Assembly (NCBI RefSeq): GCF_019656315.1
Contig: NZ_BPLU01000008.1
Coordinates: 349,140 to 413,139, forward strand
Reading direction: 5' to 3'
Length of the DNA stretch: 64,000 bases
From: Flavobacterium sp. UMI-01
GTDB lineage: Bacteria; Bacteroidota; Bacteroidia; Flavobacteriales; Flavobacteriaceae
Of this stretch, positions 14,124 to 23,277 are shown in pieces (within the stretch, counting starts at the first letter, position 1; the number at the start of each line of letters is the position of its first letter). The notes under the pieces are model-generated. The model ran no database searches, was not told the DNA's origin, and saw nothing but the letters and a program-made list of their open reading frames with translations. A program made the translations under genes and the position numbers.

Positions 14124-14151
14124 TTGAACTATAATTTATAGTATGAAAAAT
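14124..14151 (+). other. Left attachment site, dif-like
   Basis: XerC-type arm TTGAACTATAA (14124-14134), central region TTTATA (14135-14140), XerD-type arm GTATGAAAAAT (14141-14151). It matches the right site at 25 of 28 positions with an identical central region, as strand exchange requires. The XerC arm here should be host-derived and the XerD arm element-derived. Confidence 0.75.
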
Positions 14152-14173
14152 AATGTAAGTTCGAAGTTTTTAT

Positions 14174-14242
14174 TATATTTGCCATAGATTTATTTCGAAT
14201 AAGAGGCGAGGTATTGCAGTACCGTTTGAGCCTCTTTTTTTT
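14174..14242 (+). ncRNA. Candidate small RNA with promoter and terminator, antisense to the element's genes
   Basis: A TATATTTG box (14174-14181) matches the Bacteroidota -7 consensus. About 50 bases further the sequence folds into an outer stem AAGAGGC/GCCTCTT (14201-14207 with 14230-14236) enclosing an inner stem GGTAT/GTACC with loop TGCA, followed directly by a T-run. A short plus-strand RNA from about 14188 to 14242 is predicted. The hairpin could equally act as a DNA signal in a single-stranded genome, such as a complementary-strand origin or packaging site. No expression evidence. Confidence 0.4.
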
Positions 14243-14252
14243 GTTTATAATT

Positions 14253-14507
14253 TTACCAATTTTCTTTAATTCGCCCTCTATTGCTATAATTCGGGAACGG
14301 GTCTATAAAATCATTTTTTTCATAATAACAAAGTACTTTTCTGGACCTTCTTACGTAGATTAGAATAAAATCCCATTCAATAGACTGTTTTTGTAACCAT
14401 TGGGTGTAACTGTATATACTATGAACATATTCAGTAAATAGCCTTTTTTGACCGTTTAAATATACTGTTACGCTGTAATCATTTTTCTTTTTAAATTCTA
14501 TATCCAT
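14253..14507 (-). CDS. Element hypothetical protein, 84 aa
   Basis: I do not recognise it. It is a small soluble protein rich in aromatic residues (HSIYSYTQWLQKQSIEWDFILIYVRR). It is the last gene before the left boundary and has its own promoter-like box at 14690-14697 and a roughly 175-base leader with a hairpin and a direct repeat, so it may be expressed separately from the structural genes. Confidence 0.6.
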   Translation of the reverse strand: MDIEFKKKNDYSVTVYLNGQKRLFTEYVHSIYSYTQWLQKQSIEWDFILIYVRRSRKVLCYYEKNDFIDPFPNYSNRGRIKENW

Positions 14508-14515
14508 AATCTAAA

Positions 14516-14573
14516 AGGGGTAAGAGATAAAAAAAAATAACCAAGGAAATAGGGGTAAGAGATAAAAAAAAAA
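14516..14573 (+). repeat. Two-copy 22-bp direct repeat in the leader of the 84-aa gene
   Basis: AGGGGTAAGAGATAAAA plus an A-tract occurs at 14516-14538 and 14551-14574, 35 bp apart. In the minus sense it lies just upstream of the start at 14507, so it could be an operator or translation-control repeat. Only two copies; no array. Confidence 0.7.
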
Positions 14574-14634
14574 TAGCATACCCAAATTAATGAGCATACT
14601 ATTTATATAGTGTTTTATTGTTTTCATGATATTT

Positions 14635-14667
14635 GATTTATTTCAAACAAGAGGGTTTGCAGACCCT
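14635..14667 (+). repeat. Second copy of the left-end motif with a TTGCAG-loop hairpin
   Basis: Bases 14635-14654 match 14187-14206 at 18 of 20 positions (GATTTATTTC then AAACAAGAGG). Both copies lead straight into a hairpin whose loop region contains TTGCAG: here GGGT/ACCC at 14653-14666, there GGTAT/GTACC. A GATATTTG promoter-like box precedes this copy at 14628-14635. Confidence 0.6.
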
Positions 14668-14689
14668 TTATCTCATTTCGAAGTTTACG

Positions 14690-14697
14690 CAAATATA
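14690..14697 (-). promoter_or_regulatory. Predicted -7 box for the 84-aa gene
   Basis: Minus-strand TATATTTG, a perfect TAnnTTTG match, between the 150-aa gene end (14712) and the 84-aa gene. No clear -33 TTG. Confidence 0.45.
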
Positions 14698-14711
14698 CAT
14701 ATTTTTTAATC

Positions 14712-15164
14712 TTATGTTAAAAATCTTTTCATTTGTATTGTACAATTTGTTAGACCGTCATTTTCTGTATGGTCATCAATTTTTTTACATATAACAAAAA
14801 TACTATAACTATTTTCATTAGTATATCTTATATACGTGGGCGGGTCTGTATCAGTATTTTGTATAACTATTGGGTGTCTTAAACCAAAAATAGGCTGATT
14901 ACATGTAATTTTAACTATACCAGTGAAAACCTTTTCAAATGTAAATGTTAAGTCATTTGGTTTTTTAAATTCCTCAACTATTACAGTGTCATTAGCTCCC
15001 TGTCTAAATGCAATAATTATTTCCTCATAGTTGGGTTTGTTTAAATCAAATATTTGTTGCAATAAATCTGAAACAATAATATTTGTTATTTGATTGGGTT
15101 GGTTAGCTTGTGCAATGAAATCAATCCCTTGTTGTATTTCTAAAATTTTACTATTTAATGACAT
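14712..15164 (-). CDS. Element hypothetical protein, 150 aa (possible virion protein)
   Basis: No recognised domain. A helical N-terminus (EIQQGIDFIAQANQPNQI) is followed by a beta-rich half with FTFEKVFTGIVKITCNQPIF and NSYSIFVICKKID. It lacks a signal peptide or membrane span. It starts six bases after the 113-aa gene and ends the structural gene string, so a minor capsid or spike role is possible but only by position. Confidence 0.55.
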   Translation of the reverse strand: MSLNSKILEIQQGIDFIAQANQPNQITNIIVSDLLQQIFDLNKPNYEEIIIAFRQGANDTVIVEEFKKPNDLTFTFEKVFTGIVKITCNQPIFGLRHPIVIQNTDTDPPTYIRYTNENSYSIFVICKKIDDHTENDGLTNCTIQMKRFLT

Positions 15165-15170
15165 ATATTT

Positions 15171-15512
15171 TTAATTAAAAAGTTCGTTAAACTCATTTGA
15201 AAATATTCCTGTAAGTGGTTCTTTAGGAATATTAAAATTATAATCTGAATTCTCAACATTATACTCATTATCTTTAATTAGGAAATGAATGTTTGAAAAT
15301 TCAAATAAATACTTTTCAATTGCCTTAAAAGGAAAGTCTTTTAGGCGATCACCTTTTATTGGAACTCCTTTGATAATTAAACCGCATATTAAATGCTTTT
15401 CAGTTATCGAAAACGAAAAATTGTAATTTGTTCCAATCTCAGTAACAGAGATTGGAACATAATTTAAAAGTTTTTTTTCGTTTACATACAGTACAAAATT
15501 TTGTTCTACCAT
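15171..15512 (-). CDS. Element hypothetical protein, 113 aa
   Basis: Unrecognised, probably beta-rich soluble protein (NFVLYVNEKKLLNYVPISV, NYNFSFSITEKHLICGLII). Its start overlaps the end of the 163-aa membrane protein gene by seven bases, which is typical of translationally coupled phage genes. A structural role is inferred from position only. Confidence 0.6.
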   Translation of the reverse strand: MVEQNFVLYVNEKKLLNYVPISVTEIGTNYNFSFSITEKHLICGLIIKGVPIKGDRLKDFPFKAIEKYLFEFSNIHFLIKDNEYNVENSDYNFNIPKEPLTGIFSNEFNELFN

Positions 15513-15997
15513 ACTTTATTATATTGTTTGTAATAATTTTTTAATTCTGACAATTCTTTACTGTCTAGGAGCTTGTTTACATCATCCTTAAGGTTTCGCC
15601 TTTTGGTGTAAACCTCGTAGTATAAACGCTCTACTAAGTGATAGTTACGTACCTGATATTTTAAAATACGCAATACTTCAGCATCATTTTCAGTCCATCC
15701 CCTTGGATTAAGAAAGTCGTACCAATGACCAGCATCGCTATATTTAACCCCTAAGTGGTGCGCTAAGTCTGCGGCTGCATTTTGTACGCCTTTGTCAAGG
15801 GTTATTTGATTTGCGTTTTGAGTTCTAACAATAGGGTTGACATTATCTACTAACTGATTTTCGCCTTTTATCTCTTCATTTTGAAGTTTATTTAGTTGTA
15901 TCTGGTCTTTGAGATATCTATAAACTAAAGGAAGAACCAACAAAATTGCTAAAACAAAAAACCAATTAGTTTTGAGCCAATTAAAAAAACCATTCAT
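15506..15997 (-). CDS. Element single-span membrane protein, 163 aa
   Basis: From ATG 15997 the protein begins MNGFFNWLKTNWFFVLAIL with one N-terminal span and a long cytosolic or virion-interior tail (DKGVQNAAADLAHHLGVKY, DAEVLRILKYQVRNYHLVERL). The frame extends 13 codons to 16036, overlapping the 40-aa gene by 14 bases; I prefer 15997 because the span then sits at the N-terminus as in its neighbours. It could be a membrane-associated virion or assembly protein. Confidence 0.6.
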   Translation of the reverse strand: MNGFFNWLKTNWFFVLAILLVLPLVYRYLKDQIQLNKLQNEEIKGENQLVDNVNPIVRTQNANQITLDKGVQNAAADLAHHLGVKYSDAGHWYDFLNPRGWTENDAEVLRILKYQVRNYHLVERLYYEVYTKRRNLKDDVNKLLDSKELSELKNYYKQYNKVW

Positions 15998-16022
15998 TTG
16001 TGAATGGTTTCTTTTGTTATAT

Positions 16023-16145
16023 CTAACGCCTTGCATATCTGCCCGATTTTTGTTTTTTAGCTATAAAAAAGCCAATTCCAAAACCTACCGCCACTAAAGC
16101 GATTTTACCAACTGGTGAGTTTAACACCTCTTTAATTTTTTCCAT
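16023..16145 (-). CDS. Element tiny membrane protein, 40 aa
   Basis: ATG at 16145 and TAG at 16023 give a 40-residue protein: a short amphipathic start (MEKIKEVLNSPVGK), one span (IALVAVGFGIGFFIA), and a strongly basic tail (KKQKSGRYARR). Tiny membrane proteins with basic tails are common in membrane-containing and filamentous phages as virion membrane components. It lies between the transglycosylase and the 163-aa membrane protein. Coding status rests on frame, spacing and the span. Confidence 0.55.
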   Translation of the reverse strand: MEKIKEVLNSPVGKIALVAVGFGIGFFIAKKQKSGRYARR

Positions 16146-16181
16146 TATTTAAAAGAATTTAATATTTATACTTATTGTTTT

Positions 16182-16811
16182 TTAGATTGAAATAGTAAGC
16201 ACAGAGTAAAAAAAAACCACTAGCGGGATAAACCACTTTAAAGCCTTTTTTTGGTTGATATCTGCATCAAAGTCAAAACCATTTTTTGTAAAATAGCTAC
16301 TAAAAAAGTTTTCTATTTCGGACTTTGTGATTTTACCGTCTTTGTTAATATCAAAAATCGGATTTTGTTTTGCAATTAACGAAGCTGTTAAGCTTGATGT
16401 TTGCAATACGTAATTGCTTGACTGGTTCAGAGCCTTTGGGAAGAAAACAGCAAAGTAAACATCCATAAAGGAATTAAGACTTTTACCAGTTGTTTTTTTA
16501 ACTTCTTTAAAATACTCTAAAACTAAATCTAATTGCTTTTCAAAGCTCATTTTTGCAATATCTGTAAGAACGTATTTTTTGCCGTTTATAGTCTTATAAC
16601 CTACTCCCGCTTTATCCCTTGTAAACTGGATTAAACCGACCGAACCGATGGAATTAACTTTTGAGGGTGAAAACGTTTTTGCAGTTTCGAAATAGATTAC
16701 AGCCAGTAACCAATTTGGATTAATCTGTAATTTTGTTGCAACCTCAATAATTTTTAATTGTTTCGATTCGGATAGGTGTTTTTTAAAGACTTCGCTTATA
16801 ATATTACTCAT
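16182..16811 (-). CDS. Lytic transglycosylase-like protein with EF-hand and C-terminal membrane anchor
   Basis: A 209-residue protein from ATG 16811, which overlaps the upstream gene's stop (ATGAGTAA); the frame extends seven codons further to 16832. The SLT/lysozyme-like fold is indicated by the catalytic Glu in AVIYFETAKTFSPS (near residue 42) and by GSVGLIQFT (near 56-64). Residues 154-165 are a perfect EF-hand loop, DINKDGKITKSE, with a weaker second acidic stretch after it (DFDADIN). The last 18 residues form a membrane span. It should cut peptidoglycan glycan strands during entry or release, possibly with calcium dependence. Confidence 0.75.
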   Translation of the reverse strand: MSNIISEVFKKHLSESKQLKIIEVATKLQINPNWLLAVIYFETAKTFSPSKVNSIGSVGLIQFTRDKAGVGYKTINGKKYVLTDIAKMSFEKQLDLVLEYFKEVKKTTGKSLNSFMDVYFAVFFPKALNQSSNYVLQTSSLTASLIAKQNPIFDINKDGKITKSEIENFFSSYFTKNGFDFDADINQKKALKWFIPLVVFFYSVLTISI

Positions 16812-16950
16812 TGTCTTGATTTTTGTTATCAAGCTTCAAAGCTTCTATTTCATCAAGTGCAAATTGTAAAACTTTGACACCTACGGCAATTAAAGCACCA
16901 TATTTGATAACTAACTTTAATACAGTGGTGATACTATTGATTGTTTTCAT
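16804..16950 (-). CDS. Element small membrane protein, 48 aa
   Basis: ATG at 16950 and TAA at 16804 give 48 residues: one hydrophobic helix (TVLKLVIKYGALIAVGVKVL) and an acidic, polar tail. The start lies inside the end of the preceding 48-aa gene and the stop overlaps the transglycosylase start, a coupled arrangement that supports it as a real gene. Likely a virion or assembly membrane protein; it could also aid lysis, given the neighbouring transglycosylase. Confidence 0.6.
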   Translation of the reverse strand: MKTINSITTVLKLVIKYGALIAVGVKVLQFALDEIEALKLDNKNQDNE

Positions 16951-17080
16951 TTTCTTGAATTTTTGAAGTTATAATTTCAGTTTCTTTTTTTTGCCTTTGC
17001 TTTTCTTTAATTAAATCCGCTATTTCATGGAGAACTAACGGAAGTAATTTTAAAGAATATTTAAGCAGTAAGCGAAACAT
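16934..17080 (-). CDS. Element small amphipathic protein, 48 aa
   Basis: ATG at 17080 overlaps the stop of the 76-aa gene in a TAATG arrangement, and the gene ends at 16934 inside the next one. The product starts with a hydrophobic/basic helix (MFRLLLKYSLKLLPLVLHEI) followed by a charged helix (DLIKEKQRQKKETE). It could be a peripheral membrane or virion protein. Function unknown; the coupled overlaps on both sides support coding. Confidence 0.6.
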   Translation of the reverse strand: MFRLLLKYSLKLLPLVLHEIADLIKEKQRQKKETEIITSKIQENENNQ

Positions 17081-17310
17081 TAGAAACCTCTTTTTTGGTT
17101 TCCATTGTTCCCAAAACCTCTACCACCTTGGTTTTTTGTAACCTTGGTAATGGTTACCCATTCGTGAACACCTTCTTTGTTAGATGGTGATGTGGTAACC
17201 TTAAATAATTGGTTACCTACTTCGAAGTAACCTTTTGGGTATCCAGTACCCTTTTTATCTTTTAAACCGACAACAACCTGCGGATTTCCAAATCTATCGT
17301 TTTGAGCCAT
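17080..17310 (-). CDS. Element 76-aa basic protein with Gly/Arg/Asn-rich tail
   Basis: A soluble, basic protein with a strand-rich core (VVVGLKDKKGTGYPKGYFEVG, HEWVTITKVTKNQ cut across two halves) and a low-complexity tail GGRGFGNNGNQKRGF. Such tails are common in nucleic-acid-binding proteins, so an ssDNA-binding or genome-condensing role is a reasonable guess. It sits directly downstream of a hairpin carrying the element's GATACGATTT motif. Confidence 0.6.
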   Translation of the reverse strand: MAQNDRFGNPQVVVGLKDKKGTGYPKGYFEVGNQLFKVTTSPSNKEGVHEWVTITKVTKNQGGRGFGNNGNQKRGF

Positions 17311-17373
17311 TTTTTAATTTATTAAGTTGATTATTAATGTTTTAATTTCGTTAAACCTTTTTAAGATTAAGAC

Positions 17374-17413
17374 AATCGTATCTATTATGAAAATGATTAA
17401 ATAGATACGATTT
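17374..17413 (-). promoter_or_regulatory. 13-bp perfect inverted repeat containing the GATACGATTT motif
   Basis: AATCGTATCTATT (17374-17386) pairs perfectly with AATAGATACGATT (17400-17412) around a 13-base loop. It lies between the 182-aa and 76-aa genes. No good U-run follows on the minus strand, so it is more likely an operator, RNA processing site or DNA structure than a terminator. The right arm contains the same 10-mer that is tandemly repeated at 18819-18848. Confidence 0.65.
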
Positions 17414-17419
17414 TGTATT

Positions 17420-17968
17420 TTATCGCCTTTTATCACCTCGTAACATTAGGCGAAGAACTAAACCAAGTCCAAGAACAGCCAATAAAACTTTCCACCAATG
17501 AATTTTTAACCATTCGTTAAAAGTTTGATTTGCAATGTTTGCGCCCGCTTTTGCTAAACCAGTTTGTAAATCCTTGTTTATATTTTCGGTTGCTGTCTCG
17601 ACAACATTTTGCGTAATTTGCCCGCCTATTGAACCAATAGCTAAACCAATTTTACCGCCTACTGCTTGCGTGTTCAAGGCTTGAACTTGACGGCTATATT
17701 CTGCTTTGTCCATTGCTTCACGGATTAATTGTTTTTGTTTTTCGGCTTCAATTGCGTTATTTTCTGCAATTTGTTTATCATATTCGGCTTGAGCTCTGTT
17801 TTGTTCCTCAATCGCTTTTTTTTCTGCTTTTTTTGCTTCTACTGAATCAATTAAACCCCTTGAAATGCCCGTAGGGTCGAAACTTGAAGCAAGCTTAATT
17901 GCATTGTTAAAGCTGATTTTTTTTGACACCTTTTTGATGCCCGCACCAATTTTTTTAAAGAATCCCAT
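17420..17968 (-). CDS. Element coiled-coil protein with C-terminal membrane anchor (DNA-pilot-like)
   Basis: A 182-residue protein with a very basic N-terminus (MGFFKKIGAGIKKVSKKIS), a long charged coiled coil (about residues 42-100), a Gly/Ala-rich stretch (GGKIGLAIGSIGGQ), and one C-terminal span near 158-176 ending in basic residues. The layout recalls pilot or spike-base proteins of microviruses and related small phages that channel DNA across the envelope. It follows the candidate capsid gene. Assignment is by architecture only. Confidence 0.6.
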   Translation of the reverse strand: MGFFKKIGAGIKKVSKKISFNNAIKLASSFDPTGISRGLIDSVEAKKAEKKAIEEQNRAQAEYDKQIAENNAIEAEKQKQLIREAMDKAEYSRQVQALNTQAVGGKIGLAIGSIGGQITQNVVETATENINKDLQTGLAKAGANIANQTFNEWLKIHWWKVLLAVLGLGLVLRLMLRGDKRR

Positions 17969-17992
17969 AATATTAATTTTAAGTAGTTAATA

Positions 17993-18739
17993 TTATTTTG
18001 TTGGCATTTGGTAACGGATGTAGTCAGACTCATCAATACGCAAAGAGAAGTCTAGCCTAACACCTGGTTCTTTTCTGATGTTTACATTTACAATTTGTTT
18101 CAAAGGAAAAACAATGCGGTTTGCTTGTGAAACTTTGATAACAGAACCCTCTATGTAATTTGCTGAGTCAATTGTACGACTCATAACTTTTAACTCAAAT
18201 GGTGACATTTTTGTGACGCTACCGTTTTCGTGTGTGAATGAAATTTCAGTAATAGAGCCGTCAGTTTGTAAACTTCCTAAATCATACCCTTTTACATCAA
18301 AATCTCTACTTACATCTTCTGAACCCATACTTTTACGCTCATACATGATAATCGTATTAGTTGGATAGAATCCCTCTAAACCATGTAACTCATAGTTTTT
18401 TGTACCGTCTAAGTTTCTTAACTTGAATTTAATAGTTTCGGACTCCTGCAAAACAATATAACCGCCGTCCTTTGTAAGGTCGATGTTTGCAATGGTTAAA
18501 AGTGTACCATCACTTTGTATGATATCTTCTGCGAAAGTTCCTAAAGAAACTAAATCTTTAAGAAGTATCTCTTTTGCGATATCAATGTTTTTGCCCGCTT
18601 TTTCAACCCAAATGCTGATAACCTCAGTAGTTAAATTGTGGTGCGCTAATGCAGAACCTAAGATTAAAGCAGTAATTCCCTTATTTAAAGGGATTTCCGG
18701 ACTTTCAGTTTGGTTTTCTGAACTTTGCCAAATTTTCAT
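17993..18739 (-). CDS. Candidate major capsid protein, 248 aa
   Basis: The largest non-replication protein of the element. A helical N-terminal third (KGITALILGSALAHHNLT) precedes a long beta-rich region (GGYIVLQESETIKFKLRNL, GSITEISFTHENGSV, NRIVFPLKQIVNVNIRK). No membrane span or enzyme motif. It is the first gene after a terminator and a palindromic operator, so it would be the start of a strong late transcript. Size and beta content fit a jelly-roll capsid protein, single or double; this is inference, and a spike or major membrane-associated protein is possible. Confidence 0.5.
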   Translation of the reverse strand: MKIWQSSENQTESPEIPLNKGITALILGSALAHHNLTTEVISIWVEKAGKNIDIAKEILLKDLVSLGTFAEDIIQSDGTLLTIANIDLTKDGGYIVLQESETIKFKLRNLDGTKNYELHGLEGFYPTNTIIMYERKSMGSEDVSRDFDVKGYDLGSLQTDGSITEISFTHENGSVTKMSPFELKVMSRTIDSANYIEGSVIKVSQANRIVFPLKQIVNVNIRKEPGVRLDFSLRIDESDYIRYQMPTK

Positions 18740-18745
18740 ATACTT

Positions 18746-18779
18746 AAATTTTGTTAATATTAATACTGAAACAAAATTT
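18746..18779 (-). promoter_or_regulatory. Palindromic operator upstream of the candidate capsid gene
   Basis: Perfect 10-bp arms AAATTTTGTT (18746-18755) and AACAAAATTT (18770-18779) with a 14-bp AT-rich centre. The near arm ends only seven bases before the ATG at 18739. The position suits a repressor or activator site controlling the structural operon. No standard TAnnTTTG box is obvious here, so activator-dependent transcription is possible. Confidence 0.6.
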
Positions 18780-18784
18780 GGTAT

Positions 18785-18810
18785 AAAAAAAAGCCTTATT
18801 TAAGGCTTTT
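18785..18810 (-). terminator. Terminator between early and late element genes
   Basis: Arms AAAAGCCTTA (18789-18798) and TAAGGCTTTT (18801-18810). Read on the minus strand the stem is followed by an eight-base T-run. It ends transcripts coming from rep and the small early genes just before the capsid promoter region. Confidence 0.85.
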
Positions 18811-18818
18811 CTATTATT

Positions 18819-18848
18819 GATACGATTTGATACGATTTGATACTATTT
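18819..18848 (+). repeat. Three tandem 10-bp repeats (GATACGATTT), iteron- or operator-like
   Basis: Copies at 18819-18828 and 18829-18838 are identical; the third at 18839-18848 is GATACTATTT and overlaps the stop codon of the 56-aa gene. A period of 10 bp places them on one helix face. A fourth occurrence is in the hairpin arm at 17404-17413. Likely binding sites for the Rep protein or the small HTH-like protein. Confidence 0.75.
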
Positions 18849-19017
18849 AACATTTAAAATACTGTAAAAAGTGTTTATAAAGAACGGCACGTAAATTGTA
18901 TGTTGTCTTTATATCATTATAGTAACGTTTGGCAGTAGCTTCGGAAACGATTAAAAGACATTCTATATCTTTGTAAGATAATTTTTGTAACTCGGTGTAA
19001 TTATTGGTGTCAGCCAT
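18847..19017 (-). CDS. Element small HTH-like regulator, 56 aa
   Basis: ATG at 19017 and TAA at 18847 give MADTNNYTELQKLSYKD and so on. The segment LSYKDIECLLIVSEATAKR has the spacing of a helix-turn-helix in which the second helix starts at SEATAKRYY, so DNA binding is likely. It ends within the 10-bp tandem repeats and precedes the late-gene terminator, which suits an early regulator. No homologue recognised. Confidence 0.6.
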   Translation of the reverse strand: MADTNNYTELQKLSYKDIECLLIVSEATAKRYYNDIKTTYNLRAVLYKHFLQYFKC

Positions 19018-19034
19018 TGCATTAGGGTTTTTAG

Positions 19035-19064
19035 ATAGGAGGGGGGCAACCCTCCTATTTTTTT
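19035..19064 (+). terminator. Plus-strand terminator-like hairpin inside the element
   Basis: A perfect 9-bp stem ATAGGAGGG/CCCTCCTAT (19035-19043 with 19050-19058), loop GGGCAA, followed by seven T on the plus strand. All neighbouring genes are on the minus strand, where no U-run follows the stem. It may end antisense transcription, or be a DNA hairpin used in the single-stranded form. Confidence 0.6.
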
Positions 19065-19160
19065 AATAAAAATATCATTAACTCACTTATTGTTTTTTGG
19101 GACTTAAATAACCCAGCTTTTAACACTATCAGGAAAAGCAATAATAATATTGTAATGCTC

Positions 19161-19397
19161 CTAAATGGGAAAAAACAAAGATGTTTGAATAGGTGTAAAA
19201 TTTTCATTTTTTATTGGTTTTAAAGGTTCTAAAATTTCAGGATTGTGTTTTGATAAAAATTGATTGCAGGAATCATTTATAAATGTTATTTCACACCAGT
19301 TTTTACATATTCCTGCATGATTTGTTCTATTGTCATTTTTATGCCTTTCATTGTCAAAAAAAGAACAATTTTGACACTCATTTTGATATTTTTTCAT
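19161..19397 (-). CDS. Element Cys-rich (zinc-binding-like) protein, 78 aa
   Basis: The first half carries a cysteine/histidine pattern, CQNC, then H, then CKNWC and C in DSCNQF, consistent with a small zinc-binding fold. The tail is proline-rich and polar. Function unknown; in the early gene region next to rep it is plausibly a regulatory or replication-accessory protein. The 140 bases downstream hold only the plus-strand hairpin at 19035-19064. Confidence 0.55.
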   Translation of the reverse strand: MKKYQNECQNCSFFDNERHKNDNRTNHAGICKNWCEITFINDSCNQFLSKHNPEILEPLKPIKNENFTPIQTSLFFPI

Positions 19398-19461
19398 ATT
19401 ACTTAAATTAACATATTTGATAAAAATAGCCGACTATCATAGGTCGGCTTTTGCGAAAATG

Positions 19462-19638
19462 CTAAACGACTTTTTTAAGCTTAAAAAGTTCACCATTTAG
19501 GGTTTGAATTCTCATAGTCAAATGAAGCATTTCTAAGCCCTTATTTTCGGTTTTTCGTACTCCTGCCATAATTTCAAAACGTTGTTCCATTAAGCAGATT
19601 AATTCACTTTGTTTTTCGATAATTTGTTGTTGATTCAT
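19462..19638 (-). CDS. Element small helical protein, 58 aa
   Basis: ATG at 19638 and TAG at 19462. The product (MNQQQIIEKQSELICLMEQR onward) is predicted almost entirely helical with heptad-like hydrophobics and a basic C-terminus (LFKLKKVV). It may be a small coiled-coil regulator. It sits between the Cys-rich and 81-aa genes in the early operon. Coding is supported by frame length and position only. Confidence 0.5.
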   Translation of the reverse strand: MNQQQIIEKQSELICLMEQRFEIMAGVRKTENKGLEMLHLTMRIQTLNGELFKLKKVV

Positions 19639-19660
19639 AATATTTGATTTGGGATTTATT

Positions 19661-19726
19661 CACGTTGTTTTTAAGCCAGGAATTTAACTGAAGAATAATG
19701 TTTTCACGTTATTTCGTTAAGCCTGG
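19661..19726 (+). repeat. Imperfect direct and inverted repeats near the replication genes
   Basis: CACGTTGTTTTTAAGCCAGG (19661-19680) recurs as CACGTT...TTAAGCCTGG at 19705-19726, and CCAGGAATTTAAC/GTTAAGCCTGG form an imperfect inverted pair. The second copy covers the end of the 81-aa gene. The mix of direct and inverted repeats two genes downstream of rep makes it a candidate rolling-circle nick region, unproven. Confidence 0.45.
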
Positions 19727-19949
19727 AAAAAAGATCAGTAAAGTTTTTAACGTCATTTTTCAGCGTTCGAAATTTTTCCTTTTCTTTTTCTAATTCAACT
19801 CTTAATTGAATATTTGCTTTTTTAATCTTAAGATAATTAACTACACAATGTTCTACAGCTTTAGAGTTAGTATTTACAATTAACTCTTTTTTTACTTCAT
19901 TAACCGCATTTTCAAAATCAGGGCTAATGTTTCTTAAATCTATATTCAT
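19704..19949 (-). CDS. Element helical/coiled-coil protein, 81 aa (possible RHH-type)
   Basis: The N-terminal half (NTNSKAVEHCVVNYLKIKKA) resembles the helix pattern of ribbon-helix-helix DNA-binding proteins; the second half is a charged coiled coil (VELEKEKEKFRTLKNDVKN). It begins four bases after the rep stop and is therefore probably co-translated with rep, suggesting a replication-accessory or copy-control protein. No firm homologue recognised. Confidence 0.6.
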   Translation of the reverse strand: MNIDLRNISPDFENAVNEVKKELIVNTNSKAVEHCVVNYLKIKKANIQLRVELEKEKEKFRTLKNDVKNFTDLFSRLNEIT

Positions 19950-19953
19950 ATAT

Positions 19954-21081
19954 CTATAATTTAAAGTTTAAAAATTTTAAGTATTCTAATACGTGGGCGT
20001 TATACCTTGCTTTTGATTCTATTTTGACATCTTTATGTATCAATAAATCAAACAAATCAGTAATTTTTTTTCTCATTCGGGAGTGTGCTACTGATGTACT
20101 TTCTGTTGTTGTTCCTTTAAAACTTTCTACTATTGTAAGTAGTGTTTTATGGTCATAACCTTTGATTACACAGTTTTGAATTAACTCGTAGATTAAATGG
20201 TCTGTAGGGCTTAAATTCGGGGCTTTTTGCCTTACTGCATTTTCGATATAACTATTGATTGAAAAAACAACAACATTATATAAATCCTTTTCGGTAAATT
20301 CTAGATATTCCTCTAGGGTTTTAAATTGTGGTAAAATTTTAAATTTCTTAAGTCTTTCCTTATGAGCATAATTTTTTATAGTGACCTCAATACGAGTTAA
20401 ATTTTTTACTTGCTGTCCATAATGTGGAAATAAGTAAGTGTTATAAAATTCCGCTGATTTACTATACAATTCCATTTCTTTATGATAAAGCTTAATAAAT
20501 GGTAAAGATGGTTTTGCGTGTTGTCTTTTGTTGAACGATAAACCAATATTTTGAACTTCATTTACTAAATGCAAATGCTTTTGTTTTGTTCCTGTTTGAT
20601 TGTACAAAGTATTTAAAGCATCTAAAAAGATTGCAGGAGTATCCGCATAACGGTTAATACATATATCAACATCGGATAAATATCCCTGCAAAAAGGTTGT
20701 AAATGAGCAATAAAAGACATTAAAGCCAATAAATTCATAGTATAATTGTTTTACTGTCTCTTTATTAATCCCCTCAAAATACCTATGTTTCAATAACTTA
20801 GTTGAAACTGTAAGGTTTATAAATTTTGTTTGTTTTTTTTCTTTAGTTTCGTTATTAAAAATTGGAATTTCAGCCAAACCAATTCTTACAGTAATTCCAT
20901 TACGAACTATTGTTATTGGTTTCGGGGGAAATAACTCACAATCTACAGCGTCCAAACTTTCATAATAGATTGCTGTTTGAGATGTTAAACGTTCGTCTAA
21001 AATTCTGCATTCTGAAAATGGTATTTTTAGACTTAACGAATCTGTTAATGGAATGTTTATAGGAATATCTTTTATAATCAT
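19954..21081 (-). CDS. Replication initiation protein (Rep_trans-like, rolling circle)
   Basis: A 375-residue protein. I see the three landmarks of the Rep_trans / phage replication initiation factor family: an acidic strand DVDICIN (137-143, compare RiDla-D in the family), KLYHKEMEL (197-205, compare the Y-K motif) and LTRIEVTIKN (228-237, compare the R-E strand). Such proteins nick one strand and start rolling-circle replication, as RstA does. It is the first gene of the element after its right boundary, and its promoter abuts the attachment site. The catalytic tyrosine is not assigned. Confidence 0.6.
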   Translation of the reverse strand: MIIKDIPINIPLTDSLSLKIPFSECRILDERLTSQTAIYYESLDAVDCELFPPKPITIVRNGITVRIGLAEIPIFNNETKEKKQTKFINLTVSTKLLKHRYFEGINKETVKQLYYEFIGFNVFYCSFTTFLQGYLSDVDICINRYADTPAIFLDALNTLYNQTGTKQKHLHLVNEVQNIGLSFNKRQHAKPSLPFIKLYHKEMELYSKSAEFYNTYLFPHYGQQVKNLTRIEVTIKNYAHKERLKKFKILPQFKTLEEYLEFTEKDLYNVVVFSINSYIENAVRQKAPNLSPTDHLIYELIQNCVIKGYDHKTLLTIVESFKGTTTESTSVAHSRMRKKITDLFDLLIHKDVKIESKARYNAHVLEYLKFLNFKL

Positions 21082-21105
21082 AACAAATTGATTTTAAGAT
21101 TACTA

Positions 21106-21113
21106 CAAACATA
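21106..21113 (-). promoter_or_regulatory. Predicted rep promoter abutting the attachment site
   Basis: Minus-strand TATGTTTG matches TAnnTTTG and lies 25 bases before the rep ATG at 21081. Its -33 region would fall in the XerD arm of the right dif-like site, so promoter context would change between the integrated and circular forms. Confidence 0.5.
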
Positions 21114-21114
21114 T

Positions 21115-21142
21115 TTGAACCATAATTTATATTATGTAAAAT
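21115..21142 (+). other. Right attachment site, dif-like
   Basis: XerC-type arm TTGAACCATAA (21115-21125), centre TTTATA (21126-21131), XerD-type arm TTATGTAAAAT (21132-21142). The XerD arm differs from the E. coli dif XerD arm, as I recall it (TTATGTTAAAT), at one position, which is the main reason to call it dif-like. The predicted restored host site combines the left XerC arm with this XerD arm. Confidence 0.75.
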
Positions 21143-21360: not shown

Positions 21361-23277
21361 ATGAATACAATTGCTACTCAAATTGCTGATTTTTTAAAAG
21401 ATTATGCACCTTTTAATCATCTGACTCTTCAAGAATTATCAGAAATTGCTTCCAGTATCCGAGTAATCAATTTAGAAAAAAATAAAACAATATTCAAAGT
21501 TAATGACCCTTTACATGATTGTTTTTATGTAGTGGCTTCAGGGCTCATCAATCTTTATGTGATTATGGATGCTGAAGAAACTATTTTGGACAAATGCCAT
21601 CAAGGAACTATTTTTGGTTTGCGCCCCTTTTTCGCCAAAAACAATTATATGATGACCGCAAAAGCGCGTGAGGAAAGCGTTGTCTATGCTATACCTATTG
21701 CGGTTTTTAGACCCTTTGTTGCTAGTAATTCAGAAGTTTTGAATTTACTACTTGAAAATTTTGCTGTTGACAAACGCAACACCAAGGATAAATCCAATTA
21801 TGAAAGTAATCTTATTTCAGAAAACGCCTTTTTTACTGGCCAACAGTCTGGAATGCAGTTTTTTCAAAATTTAACGTTCAATACTTCCCCATTAATTACT
21901 CAAGGCAATAGCATCGTCCAAGATGTCGCGCAATTAATGGCTGAAACACGATTAAACAATGCGATTGTAGCCGAGAATAACTTACCCGTAGGTATTGTTA
22001 CAGATATTGATTTAACTTATAAAATTGCTACTGGACGTCATCCCATTACAAGTACTGTGGATACTATCATGACATGGCCTGTGATTACAGTTTCAGAAAA
22101 TGTTTCTTTAGCTGAAGCGCAATTGTTAATGTTAAAAAACAATGTGACTCATTTGTGTGTAACCATTGATGGCTCTGATAAAACCGAAATTAAAGGTGTC
22201 ATTACAGAACATGATTTAATTTTAGCTCAAGCGAATAACCCTGGAATTTTAATAAAAGAAATAAAACGCTCTCAAACTGCTAGTGAATTAAAACAAATTC
22301 GCTCTCGCCTAGCAGATATCATCCAATCCTCCATCCAAAAAAACATTCCGCTAACGCACATTACCAATATCGCCAGCGAGGTTAATTTTGCCTTATTAAA
22401 AAGAGCGGTTGAACAGTCTATTTTGGAATTAGGCTCCCCTCCTGCTCGTTTTGCTTGGTTTAGTATTGGTAGTCAGGCCAGAAAAGAGCAATTATTGCTT
22501 ACCGATCAAGATAACTTTTTGGTTTTTGAAGATGTTGCACCTGAAAAGTATCGCGATGTAAAAGATTATTTTCTTAATCTAGCCAAAAAGGCTACCTTGA
22601 AGTTAGAAAAAGTTGGCTATTCACTTTGTCCTAATGGCCATTTGGCTAGTAATATGATTTGGTGTAAATCATTGTCGGATTGGTTAAAACAATTTGACAA
22701 TTGGATGCGTAATCCAGGAGAAAACAACAATGAATTGAGCAGTTTGTTTTTTGATTACGAAATTATTTTTGGTGACCAAAGAATTGAAGAAGCTATCAAT
22801 ACCATCGTTTTTGAGAACGCAGTGGATAGTATCTCGTTTTATGATTTTCTAGGAAATGATGCTTTACGCAAAAATTCCTCTCTTACCTTTTTCAAAAAAT
22901 TTATTGTTGAAGAAGAAGGACCTCATAAAAACAAATTTGACATCAAGACGCGTGCCCTTTTACCTTTAATTGATGCCGCTCGATTATTCACGCTAAGTCT
23001 TGGAATCAAAGGAATTAATAACACTTATGTTCGATTTAAACAATTAGCTATATCCGACCCTAAGCATTCTGAAATTTATTTGGATTGTGCCGATGCTTTT
23101 TTAACTCTTTTAAAGTTTAGAACTTTAGAAGGAATAAAAAATGACGATTCAGGACAATTCATCAATATTGAAGAGCTGACTAAAATAGATAGAGAAAAAC
23201 TAAAAAATGCGCTCTTACCAATGAAGGAATTAGAAGATTTAATTAAACACAAATTTCAATTAACTCAATTTTCTTAA
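21361..23277 (+). CDS. cNMP-binding/CBS-pair/DUF294 nucleotidyltransferase-like protein
   Basis: A 638-residue cytoplasmic protein with four parts: an N-terminal cyclic-nucleotide-binding-like beta barrel (about 1-135), a CBS pair (about 175-295, with GIVTDIDLTYKIATGRHP and GVITEHDLILAQ), a DUF294 nucleotidyltransferase core with GSQARKEQLLLTDQDN, and a helical C-terminal domain. The nucleotidyltransferase motif G-S...TDQD is intact. The family is likely regulatory, sensing nucleotides and modifying a partner; GlnD-like proteins are related. It is coupled to the exonuclease-like gene two bases downstream. Confidence 0.9.
   Translation: MNTIATQIADFLKDYAPFNHLTLQELSEIASSIRVINLEKNKTIFKVNDPLHDCFYVVASGLINLYVIMDAEETILDKCHQGTIFGLRPFFAKNNYMMTAKAREESVVYAIPIAVFRPFVASNSEVLNLLLENFAVDKRNTKDKSNYESNLISENAFFTGQQSGMQFFQNLTFNTSPLITQGNSIVQDVAQLMAETRLNNAIVAENNLPVGIVTDIDLTYKIATGRHPITSTVDTIMTWPVITVSENVSLAEAQLLMLKNNVTHLCVTIDGSDKTEIKGVITEHDLILAQANNPGILIKEIKRSQTASELKQIRSRLADIIQSSIQKNIPLTHITNIASEVNFALLKRAVEQSILELGSPPARFAWFSIGSQARKEQLLLTDQDNFLVFEDVAPEKYRDVKDYFLNLAKKATLKLEKVGYSLCPNGHLASNMIWCKSLSDWLKQFDNWMRNPGENNNELSSLFFDYEIIFGDQRIEEAINTIVFENAVDSISFYDFLGNDALRKNSSLTFFKKFIVEEEGPHKNKFDIKTRALLPLIDAARLFTLSLGIKGINNTYVRFKQLAISDPKHSEIYLDCADAFLTLLKFRTLEGIKNDDSGQFINIEELTKIDREKLKNALLPMKELEDLIKHKFQLTQFS

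Follow-up and report, generated by a model that had tools for sequence, protein, structure and literature searches.

Gene content and bounding sites of the element

We analysed a window of 64,000 nucleotides from Flavobacterium sp. UMI-01 (contig NZ_BPLU01000008.1, positions 349,140 to 413,139), in which a phage-like element lies between two dif-like sites next to a host gene for a CBS-domain protein (Table 1). The sites are co-oriented 28-mers with identical 6-nt centres (TTTATA) and a start-to-start spacing of 6,991 bp, the size predicted in the initial annotation. Their XerC and XerD arms are named by comparison with the dif site of E. coli, which we take to apply here. In the whole genome (4.02 Mb, 76 contigs), a pattern spanning both 28-mers matched without mismatches only at these two places, which bears out the proposed bounds. 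A single further place came within 3 mismatches, at exactly 3, and a control in which the two-copy pattern was read backwards gave no match. The terminus was not clearly marked by the GC skew of the genome.

The interval contains 16 plausible genes, which, as originally described, are all encoded on the minus strand; every one has an open frame. The genome has six Phage_integrase-family matches, all outside the element, in which no tyrosine recombinase was found, in agreement with its description as integrase-free; two genes of this family elsewhere in the genome are open frames of the size of XerC and XerD (305 and 314 aa). The element thus combines a dif-mimicking phage attachment site (attP) with the absence of a recombinase of its own, the combination that characterizes integrative mobile elements exploiting Xer (IMEX). 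A ΦCjT23-related capsid gene between two copies of dif makes insertion by XerC/XerD likely. Overall, we are confident that the element is a 6,991-bp prophage related to ΦCjT23 at the chromosomal dif, likely inserted by the XerC and XerD of the host via a dif-like attP of the phage. The initial proposal of an integrase-free prophage of a small icosahedral membrane phage at dif is supported by the capsid homology, the hybrid dif sites and the empty sites of relatives.

Table 1. Features of the element and the adjoining host gene (positions in the window).
Feature	Position	Strand	Remarks
Far dif hybrid	14124..14151	+	host XerC arm TTGAACTATAA, centre TTTATA, phage XerD arm GTATGAAAAAT
84-aa protein, far end	14253..14507	-	similar ORFs in related prophages
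150-aa ORF, putative separate spike	14712..15164	-	6 nt past penton stop, same frame
Putative free-standing penton base, 113 aa	15171..15512	-	predicted ΦCjT23 P13 N-terminal fold
Structural protein homologue (ΦCjT23 gp12 / phi18:4 gp9)	15506..16036	-	sequence match
Small hydrophobic protein, 40 aa	16023..16145	-	open reading frame
Lytic transglycosylase, FLiP gp14 homologue	16182..16832	-	E 5e-17
ΦCjT23 gp9 homologue, 48 aa	16804..16950	-	phmmer only, 9e-7
ΦCjT23 gp8 homologue, 48 aa	16934..17080	-	sequence match
76-aa protein	17080..17310	-	present in related prophages
ΦCjT23 gp6 homologue	17420..17968	-	E 9e-12
Major capsid protein, 248 aa, ΦCjT23 type	17993..18739	-	sequence match
HTH-like protein, 56 aa	18847..19017	-	counterpart ahead of capsid gene in 47/47 loci
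Cysteine-rich ORF, 78 aa	19161..19397	-	similar ORFs in several related prophages
58-aa ORF	19462..19638	-	open reading frame
81-aa protein	19704..19949	-	54.5% identical to FLiP gp16
Rep, 375 aa	19954..21081	-	no annotated family; predicted fold resembles pT181-type initiators
CBS-side dif hybrid	21115..21142	+	phage XerC arm TTGAACCATAA, centre TTTATA, host XerD arm TTATGTAAAAT
Host CBS-domain gene	21361..23277	+	outside element, adjoins dif; locus marker in relatives
HTH, helix-turn-helix; ORF, open reading frame.

Three additional small minus-strand ORFs (14511-14627, 17314-17436 and 19055-19207) may be real; the second has a look-alike in the related prophage L006 and the third, by eye, one in L095. 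Near the far end, two near-identical 25-nt repeats lie 35 nt apart (14511-14573), and a hairpin followed by a T run, recognized by eye just inside the far dif site (14200-14240), is a possible terminator.

Empty sites and asymmetry of the attachment site

Swapping the arms between the two hybrids predicts an empty chromosomal site (attB) of the sequence TTGAACTATAATTTATATTATGTAAAAT. This prediction was recorded before the search and was then matched letter for letter in 5 of 22 same-genus relatives (G001, G005, G006, G014 and G015), in none of which a match to the capsid gene was found. G014 additionally holds a phage-type dif hybrid with a ΦCjT23 gp1-like ORF (L109:1148, contig 91), possibly a remnant or the result of an assembly break. 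A site within 3 mismatches was present in 19 of the 22 relatives, and in 15 of these the CBS-domain gene lies within the 1.5-kb flank of dif, as in the window. Related prophages also occupy this place, next to the CBS-domain gene, in F. undicola and F. xinjiangense, and Pontimicrobium aquaticum has one between a dif-like pair of its own.

A capsid profile matched 44 of the 398 genomes of the genus, that of UMI-01 included. Together with L033-L035 these make up a survey of 47 rows, representing 46 distinct places (L035 equals L101), and 42 rows (41 places) show both sites in the expected orientation. In the 42 rows the XerC arm and the centre are kept at both ends and the XerD arm is degenerate at the phage end only: the CBS-side XerD arm (TTATGTAAAAT) is unchanged in 41, and the far-side arm has T changed to G at position 18 in 39 and is mixed at positions 23-28. 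The phage-end arm of the window (GTATGAAAAAT) is among the least decayed, with differences at 2 of 11 positions. The choice of the far site was repeated using the XerC arm and centre only (17 positions; L035 left out, n=46). This gave 0-2 mismatches in 43 of 46 rows; on the opposite strand, 44 of 46 rows had 3-5 mismatches, all but the flipped loci L089 and L091; a choice by centre and XerD arm agreed on the place in just 12 of 46. Since re-selection on the XerC arm and centre gives the same place, the decay of the XerD arm is one-sided and not an artefact of the choice. In L089 and L091 the gene orientation of the prophage is reversed relative to dif and the CBS gene.

The genome record of ΦCjT23 contains one attP, with a matching degenerate XerD arm. 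One surveyed prophage (L066) is 97% identical to ΦCjT23 over 7,378 of 7,642 bases and is flanked by exactly the two hybrids expected from the ΦCjT23 attP, the CBS side having the left context plus XerC arm and the far side the XerD arm plus right context. An attP with a good XerC side and centre and a divergent XerD side has been described for TLCφ and the gonococcal genetic island (PMC5357621, in excerpt), and the sites of the window and of the 42 rows are of this type. The resemblance in asymmetry to TLCφ and the gonococcal island is an analogy drawn from description and not from sequence; recombination of those elements, in contrast, was demonstrated experimentally. Small, tailless and integrase-free phages that use dif/Xer are also found, according to the available text, among Enterogokushovirus (PMC7062461) and Vibrio NO16 prophages (PMC9966536), which have other capsid families and hosts and are again likened by description. 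Alternatively, integration could start with XerC, as in VGJφ, instead of following the TLCφ/gonococcal-island route. It is the XerC arm that is well kept at both ends, as such a route would have it; the centre of VGJφ, however, departs from dif near the XerD side, whereas TTTATA is identical at both ends in all 42 rows (the core having been used in part to choose the far site), and we consider XerC-first integration doubtful. We know of no gene common to the element of the window and TLCφ or the gonococcal genetic island.

A mosaic with a ΦCjT23-type capsid

The capsid protein is 38% identical to the major capsid protein of ΦCjT23 (E 2e-40) and matches the solved structure of the latter (7zzz) with an E of 4e-43. 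ΦCjT23 is an isolated, temperate and plaque-forming Flavobacterium phage with a single-stranded DNA genome and an inner membrane (PMC9719478, in excerpt). Four further proteins match ΦCjT23 (gp6, gp8, gp9 and gp12; gp9 by phmmer only), and two match FLiP and not ΦCjT23, i.e. the transglycosylase (gp14) and the 81-aa protein (gp16). The capsid is ~31% identical to capsids of Cellulophaga single-stranded DNA phages; it matched 12 phage records, 11 of them from Cellulophaga, and IMG/VR, searched with the capsid alignment, gave two contigs that by their length look like known Cellulophaga phages. Capsid and FLiP gp8 were unmatched by BLASTP (E<1) and phmmer, and by sequence the capsid is not of the FLiP type that marks the Finnlakeviridae; in 395 genomes of the host's class the FLiP capsid gave a single match (E 9e-7). 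Comparison with FLiP and Cellulophaga proteins, as suggested initially, supported the transglycosylase, and of the proposed FLiP-like or Cellulophaga affiliation two FLiP-type genes remain, the nearest relative by capsid being ΦCjT23 and not FLiP. Because the capsid and gp6, gp8, gp9 and gp12 homologues point to one phage and the transglycosylase and gp16 homologue to the other, the element is a mosaic of a ΦCjT23-type capsid, FLiP-type transglycosylase and gp16, an unannotated Rep and a predicted free-standing penton.

With ΦCjT23 and the ΦCjT23-like prophages the element shares, besides these homologues, an HTH-like gene before the capsid gene, which in ΦCjT23 is gp4, its size and a 28-nt dif-like site at each end. 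A replication gene, assigned by predicted fold, is closely followed by the capsid gene on the same strand. It differs from ΦCjT23 by a Rep of another family, a FLiP-type transglycosylase replacing gp10, the gp16 homologue, and a free-standing penton base where ΦCjT23 has a one-piece spike. FLiP (Finnlakevirus, MF361639) likewise has gp16 after Rep and a penton separate from the spike, but a Rep matching PF05144, no homologue of the HTH-like gene and no dif-like site (best 9 mismatches). The Cellulophaga phages phi18:4 and Omtje_1 share the HTH-like gene and a minus-strand dif-like site (3 mismatches at L003:5166 and 5 at L002:1121, respectively); both, unlike the element, are isolated phages, with another Rep (PF02486 in phi18:4) and another endolysin. 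A FLiP-like prophage from another family (L114; Rep E 3.5e-34, capsid 3.7e-9) is flanked by dif-like sites at L114:5923 and L114:16727, a distance of 10,804 bp; one has 5 and the other 10 mismatches to the Flavobacterium site. Ten mismatches alone are at chance level; the weaker site shares the centre of its partner and the G at position 18. Relatives of FLiP may, to judge from these sites, also use dif.

Kejzar et al. 2022 (PMC9719478, in excerpt) reported 57 dif-flanked Flavobacterium prophages of 6,021-8,407 bp, a range that includes 6,991 bp, in which Rep is followed by the capsid gene; a few of them matched FLiP gp16. Both this kind of prophage and its use of dif were therefore already known, elements like the present one may be among the 57, and "rarely described" in the initial annotation was an overstatement. 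Our literature search found, among the papers listed, no fuller account of ΦCjT23-like dif prophages; the FLiP-2 paper (PMC13269007), in the text available, reports FLiP-like prophages in Sphingobacteriia and does not contain the word Xer. The prophage differs from the published ones mainly by a predicted free-standing vertex protein and a predicted replication initiator whose family is unannotated.

Rep had no match in Pfam up to E 1 (PF02486 included), among PHROG models, in 50,697 phage records or among the free phage genomes of IMG/VR; the Rep of phi18:4 matches PF02486 and that of ΦCjT23 does so below the cut-off. The predicted model may share the fold of pT181-type initiators (RepDE / 4cij), which it resembles with moderate Z; the annotation as a rolling-circle initiator is supported by this predicted fold, and Tyr199 is a candidate nicking residue. 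An HUH-type assignment was rejected, as the HLH stretch, which might be taken for an HUH motif, lies outside the invariant and 90% columns of 46 homologues. The traits of Rep_trans and HUH proteins are taken here as general background. By Rep, 29 of the 47 rows are of the ΦCjT23 type, 13 (12 distinct) belong to the family of the window and 5 to neither. In the latter, ΦCjT23-type prophages L095, L097, L098, L099 and L104, an HUH-type (Rep_1-like) initiator replaces Rep_trans: the Rep of L095 matches Rep_1 (PF01446, E 7.5e-15) and the other four share the HPHLH motif by eye. The structural block of L095 is close to that of the window (transglycosylase E 3e-110, gp12-type protein 2e-73), and this combination with a different Rep indicates exchange of the replication module.

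The 113-aa protein is predicted to have the fold of the N-terminal penton domain of ΦCjT23 P13. In ΦCjT23 this domain is part of a one-piece spike, a trait that is not among the published features defining the prophages; here the predicted penton domain is an ORF of its own. A detached penton is the intermediate proposed in the spike-swapping model of Kejzar et al. (PMC9719478, in excerpt). The two ORFs could also be a single spike gene split by a stop codon, as the 150-aa ORF starts in frame just past the stop, most relatives have a longer fused protein, and L103 resembles such a cut. We regard this as rather unlikely: P0079, a protein from another source with 63-65% identity, terminates at the same position and has a similar C-terminus, and the penton proteins of L104, L106 and L107 (104-125 aa) are followed by other genes.

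Proposed mechanism and its alternatives

For the prophage at dif the following sequence of events, each enzymatic step of which we infer, can be proposed. The phage circle would carry an attP of the form TTGAACCATAA-TTTATA-GTATGAAAAAT, in which the XerC arm is good, the centre resembles that of the host and the XerD arm is degenerate; the predicted junction of the circle reads TTGAACCATAATTTATAGTATGAAAAAT. Crossover with the host dif would yield the two hybrids. The CBS-side hybrid, with the full host XerD arm, would keep serving as dif, and the far hybrid, with the poor XerD arm of the phage, would, by analogy with the gonococcal island, be a weak or FtsK-insensitive partner and so keep the prophage from leaving. 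Once the phage is excised, Rep would initiate rolling-circle replication, single-stranded DNA would be packaged into a membrane-lined shell of capsid protein, and opening of the cell wall would fall to the transglycosylase.

Several observations weigh against this account. Five of the 47 rows depart from the expected layout at one or both sites: L089 and L091 are in the flipped orientation, L090 and L092 show a single site close to the end of a contig, and L093 has one site at the cut-off. The role of Rep is drawn from a predicted fold of moderate Z and weak profile links, with a best E of 0.02 for Foldseek alone. The comparison with element-free genomes is one with same-genus relatives rather than same-species isolates, and circular junction, excision, integration and virion of this element are deduced from its DNA.

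The element might instead be a stuck remnant that entered by Xer recombination but has lost the ability to excise or to form particles. Its far XerD arm is degenerate, its circle is a deduced one, and the penton/spike pair could be a stop-cut spike. The open frames of all 16 genes, a XerD arm with only 2 mismatches and the same degenerate arm in the temperate, plaque-forming ΦCjT23 make this improbable. Two chance repeats in ordinary chromosome would suit the AT-rich region and the shortness of the repeats, but can be dismissed in view of the single additional place within 3 mismatches in 4.02 Mb, the capsid homology and the identical arrangement across 42 rows.

The HTH-like gene is found in all 47 loci, with any Rep type, 46-366 nt (mostly ~110 nt) ahead of the capsid gene. 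Of the 13 seeds of the profile used, 10 stem from these same loci. A profile of 8 seeds from loci with other Reps ranked all 29 copies next to a ΦCjT23-type Rep ahead of every off-site ORF, the last one narrowly (E 0.36 versus 0.39); with the reverse profile, just 3 of the other 18 copies outranked the top off-site ORF. Pfam searches of the HTH-like proteins gave general HTH families, one above the cut-off and none pointing to a role with Xer. An activator of Xer, XafT, has been described (PMC9765430, in excerpt). Such a role is weakened here by the poor reverse profile, the absence of the gene from L114 between its two dif-like sites, and the lack of a pointer from Pfam; a role as a repressor or another kind of regulator is no less likely, and an XafT-style activator is retained only in the bolder reading that follows.

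In that reading, which we put forward tentatively and hold, as a whole, to be improbable, the ΦCjT23-like prophages would be a chassis with a constant capsid block, a universal HTH-like gene and an asymmetric attP, which trades at least three kinds of initiator (Rep_trans, the family of the window and HUH-type Rep_1) as well as several lysins and vertices. The host would regain a full dif at one end, so that dimer resolution is unharmed, and the far site would be ignored by FtsK, so that the prophage is stable. The HTH-like protein would turn on Xer excision, and the free-standing penton would be the intermediate of the spike-swapping model.

To the published work our analysis adds the predicted empty site found exactly in five genomes, the 44 capsid carriers among 398 genomes and the one-sided decay of the XerD arm. 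The dif-like sites of phi18:4 and Omtje_1 predict lysogeny at dif. For phi18:4 this prediction goes together with the turbid, 'temperate phage-like' halo and the lack of identifiable lysogeny genes reported in the available part of its description (PMC11946311), which mentions neither a dif site nor Xer. For the question of how an integrase-free phage at dif escapes excision at each division, the one-sided decay in 42 rows points to the solution of the gonococcal island. For vertex exchange in double-jelly-roll phages, a detached penton base with the ΦCjT23 fold would correspond to the intermediate put forward in 2022.

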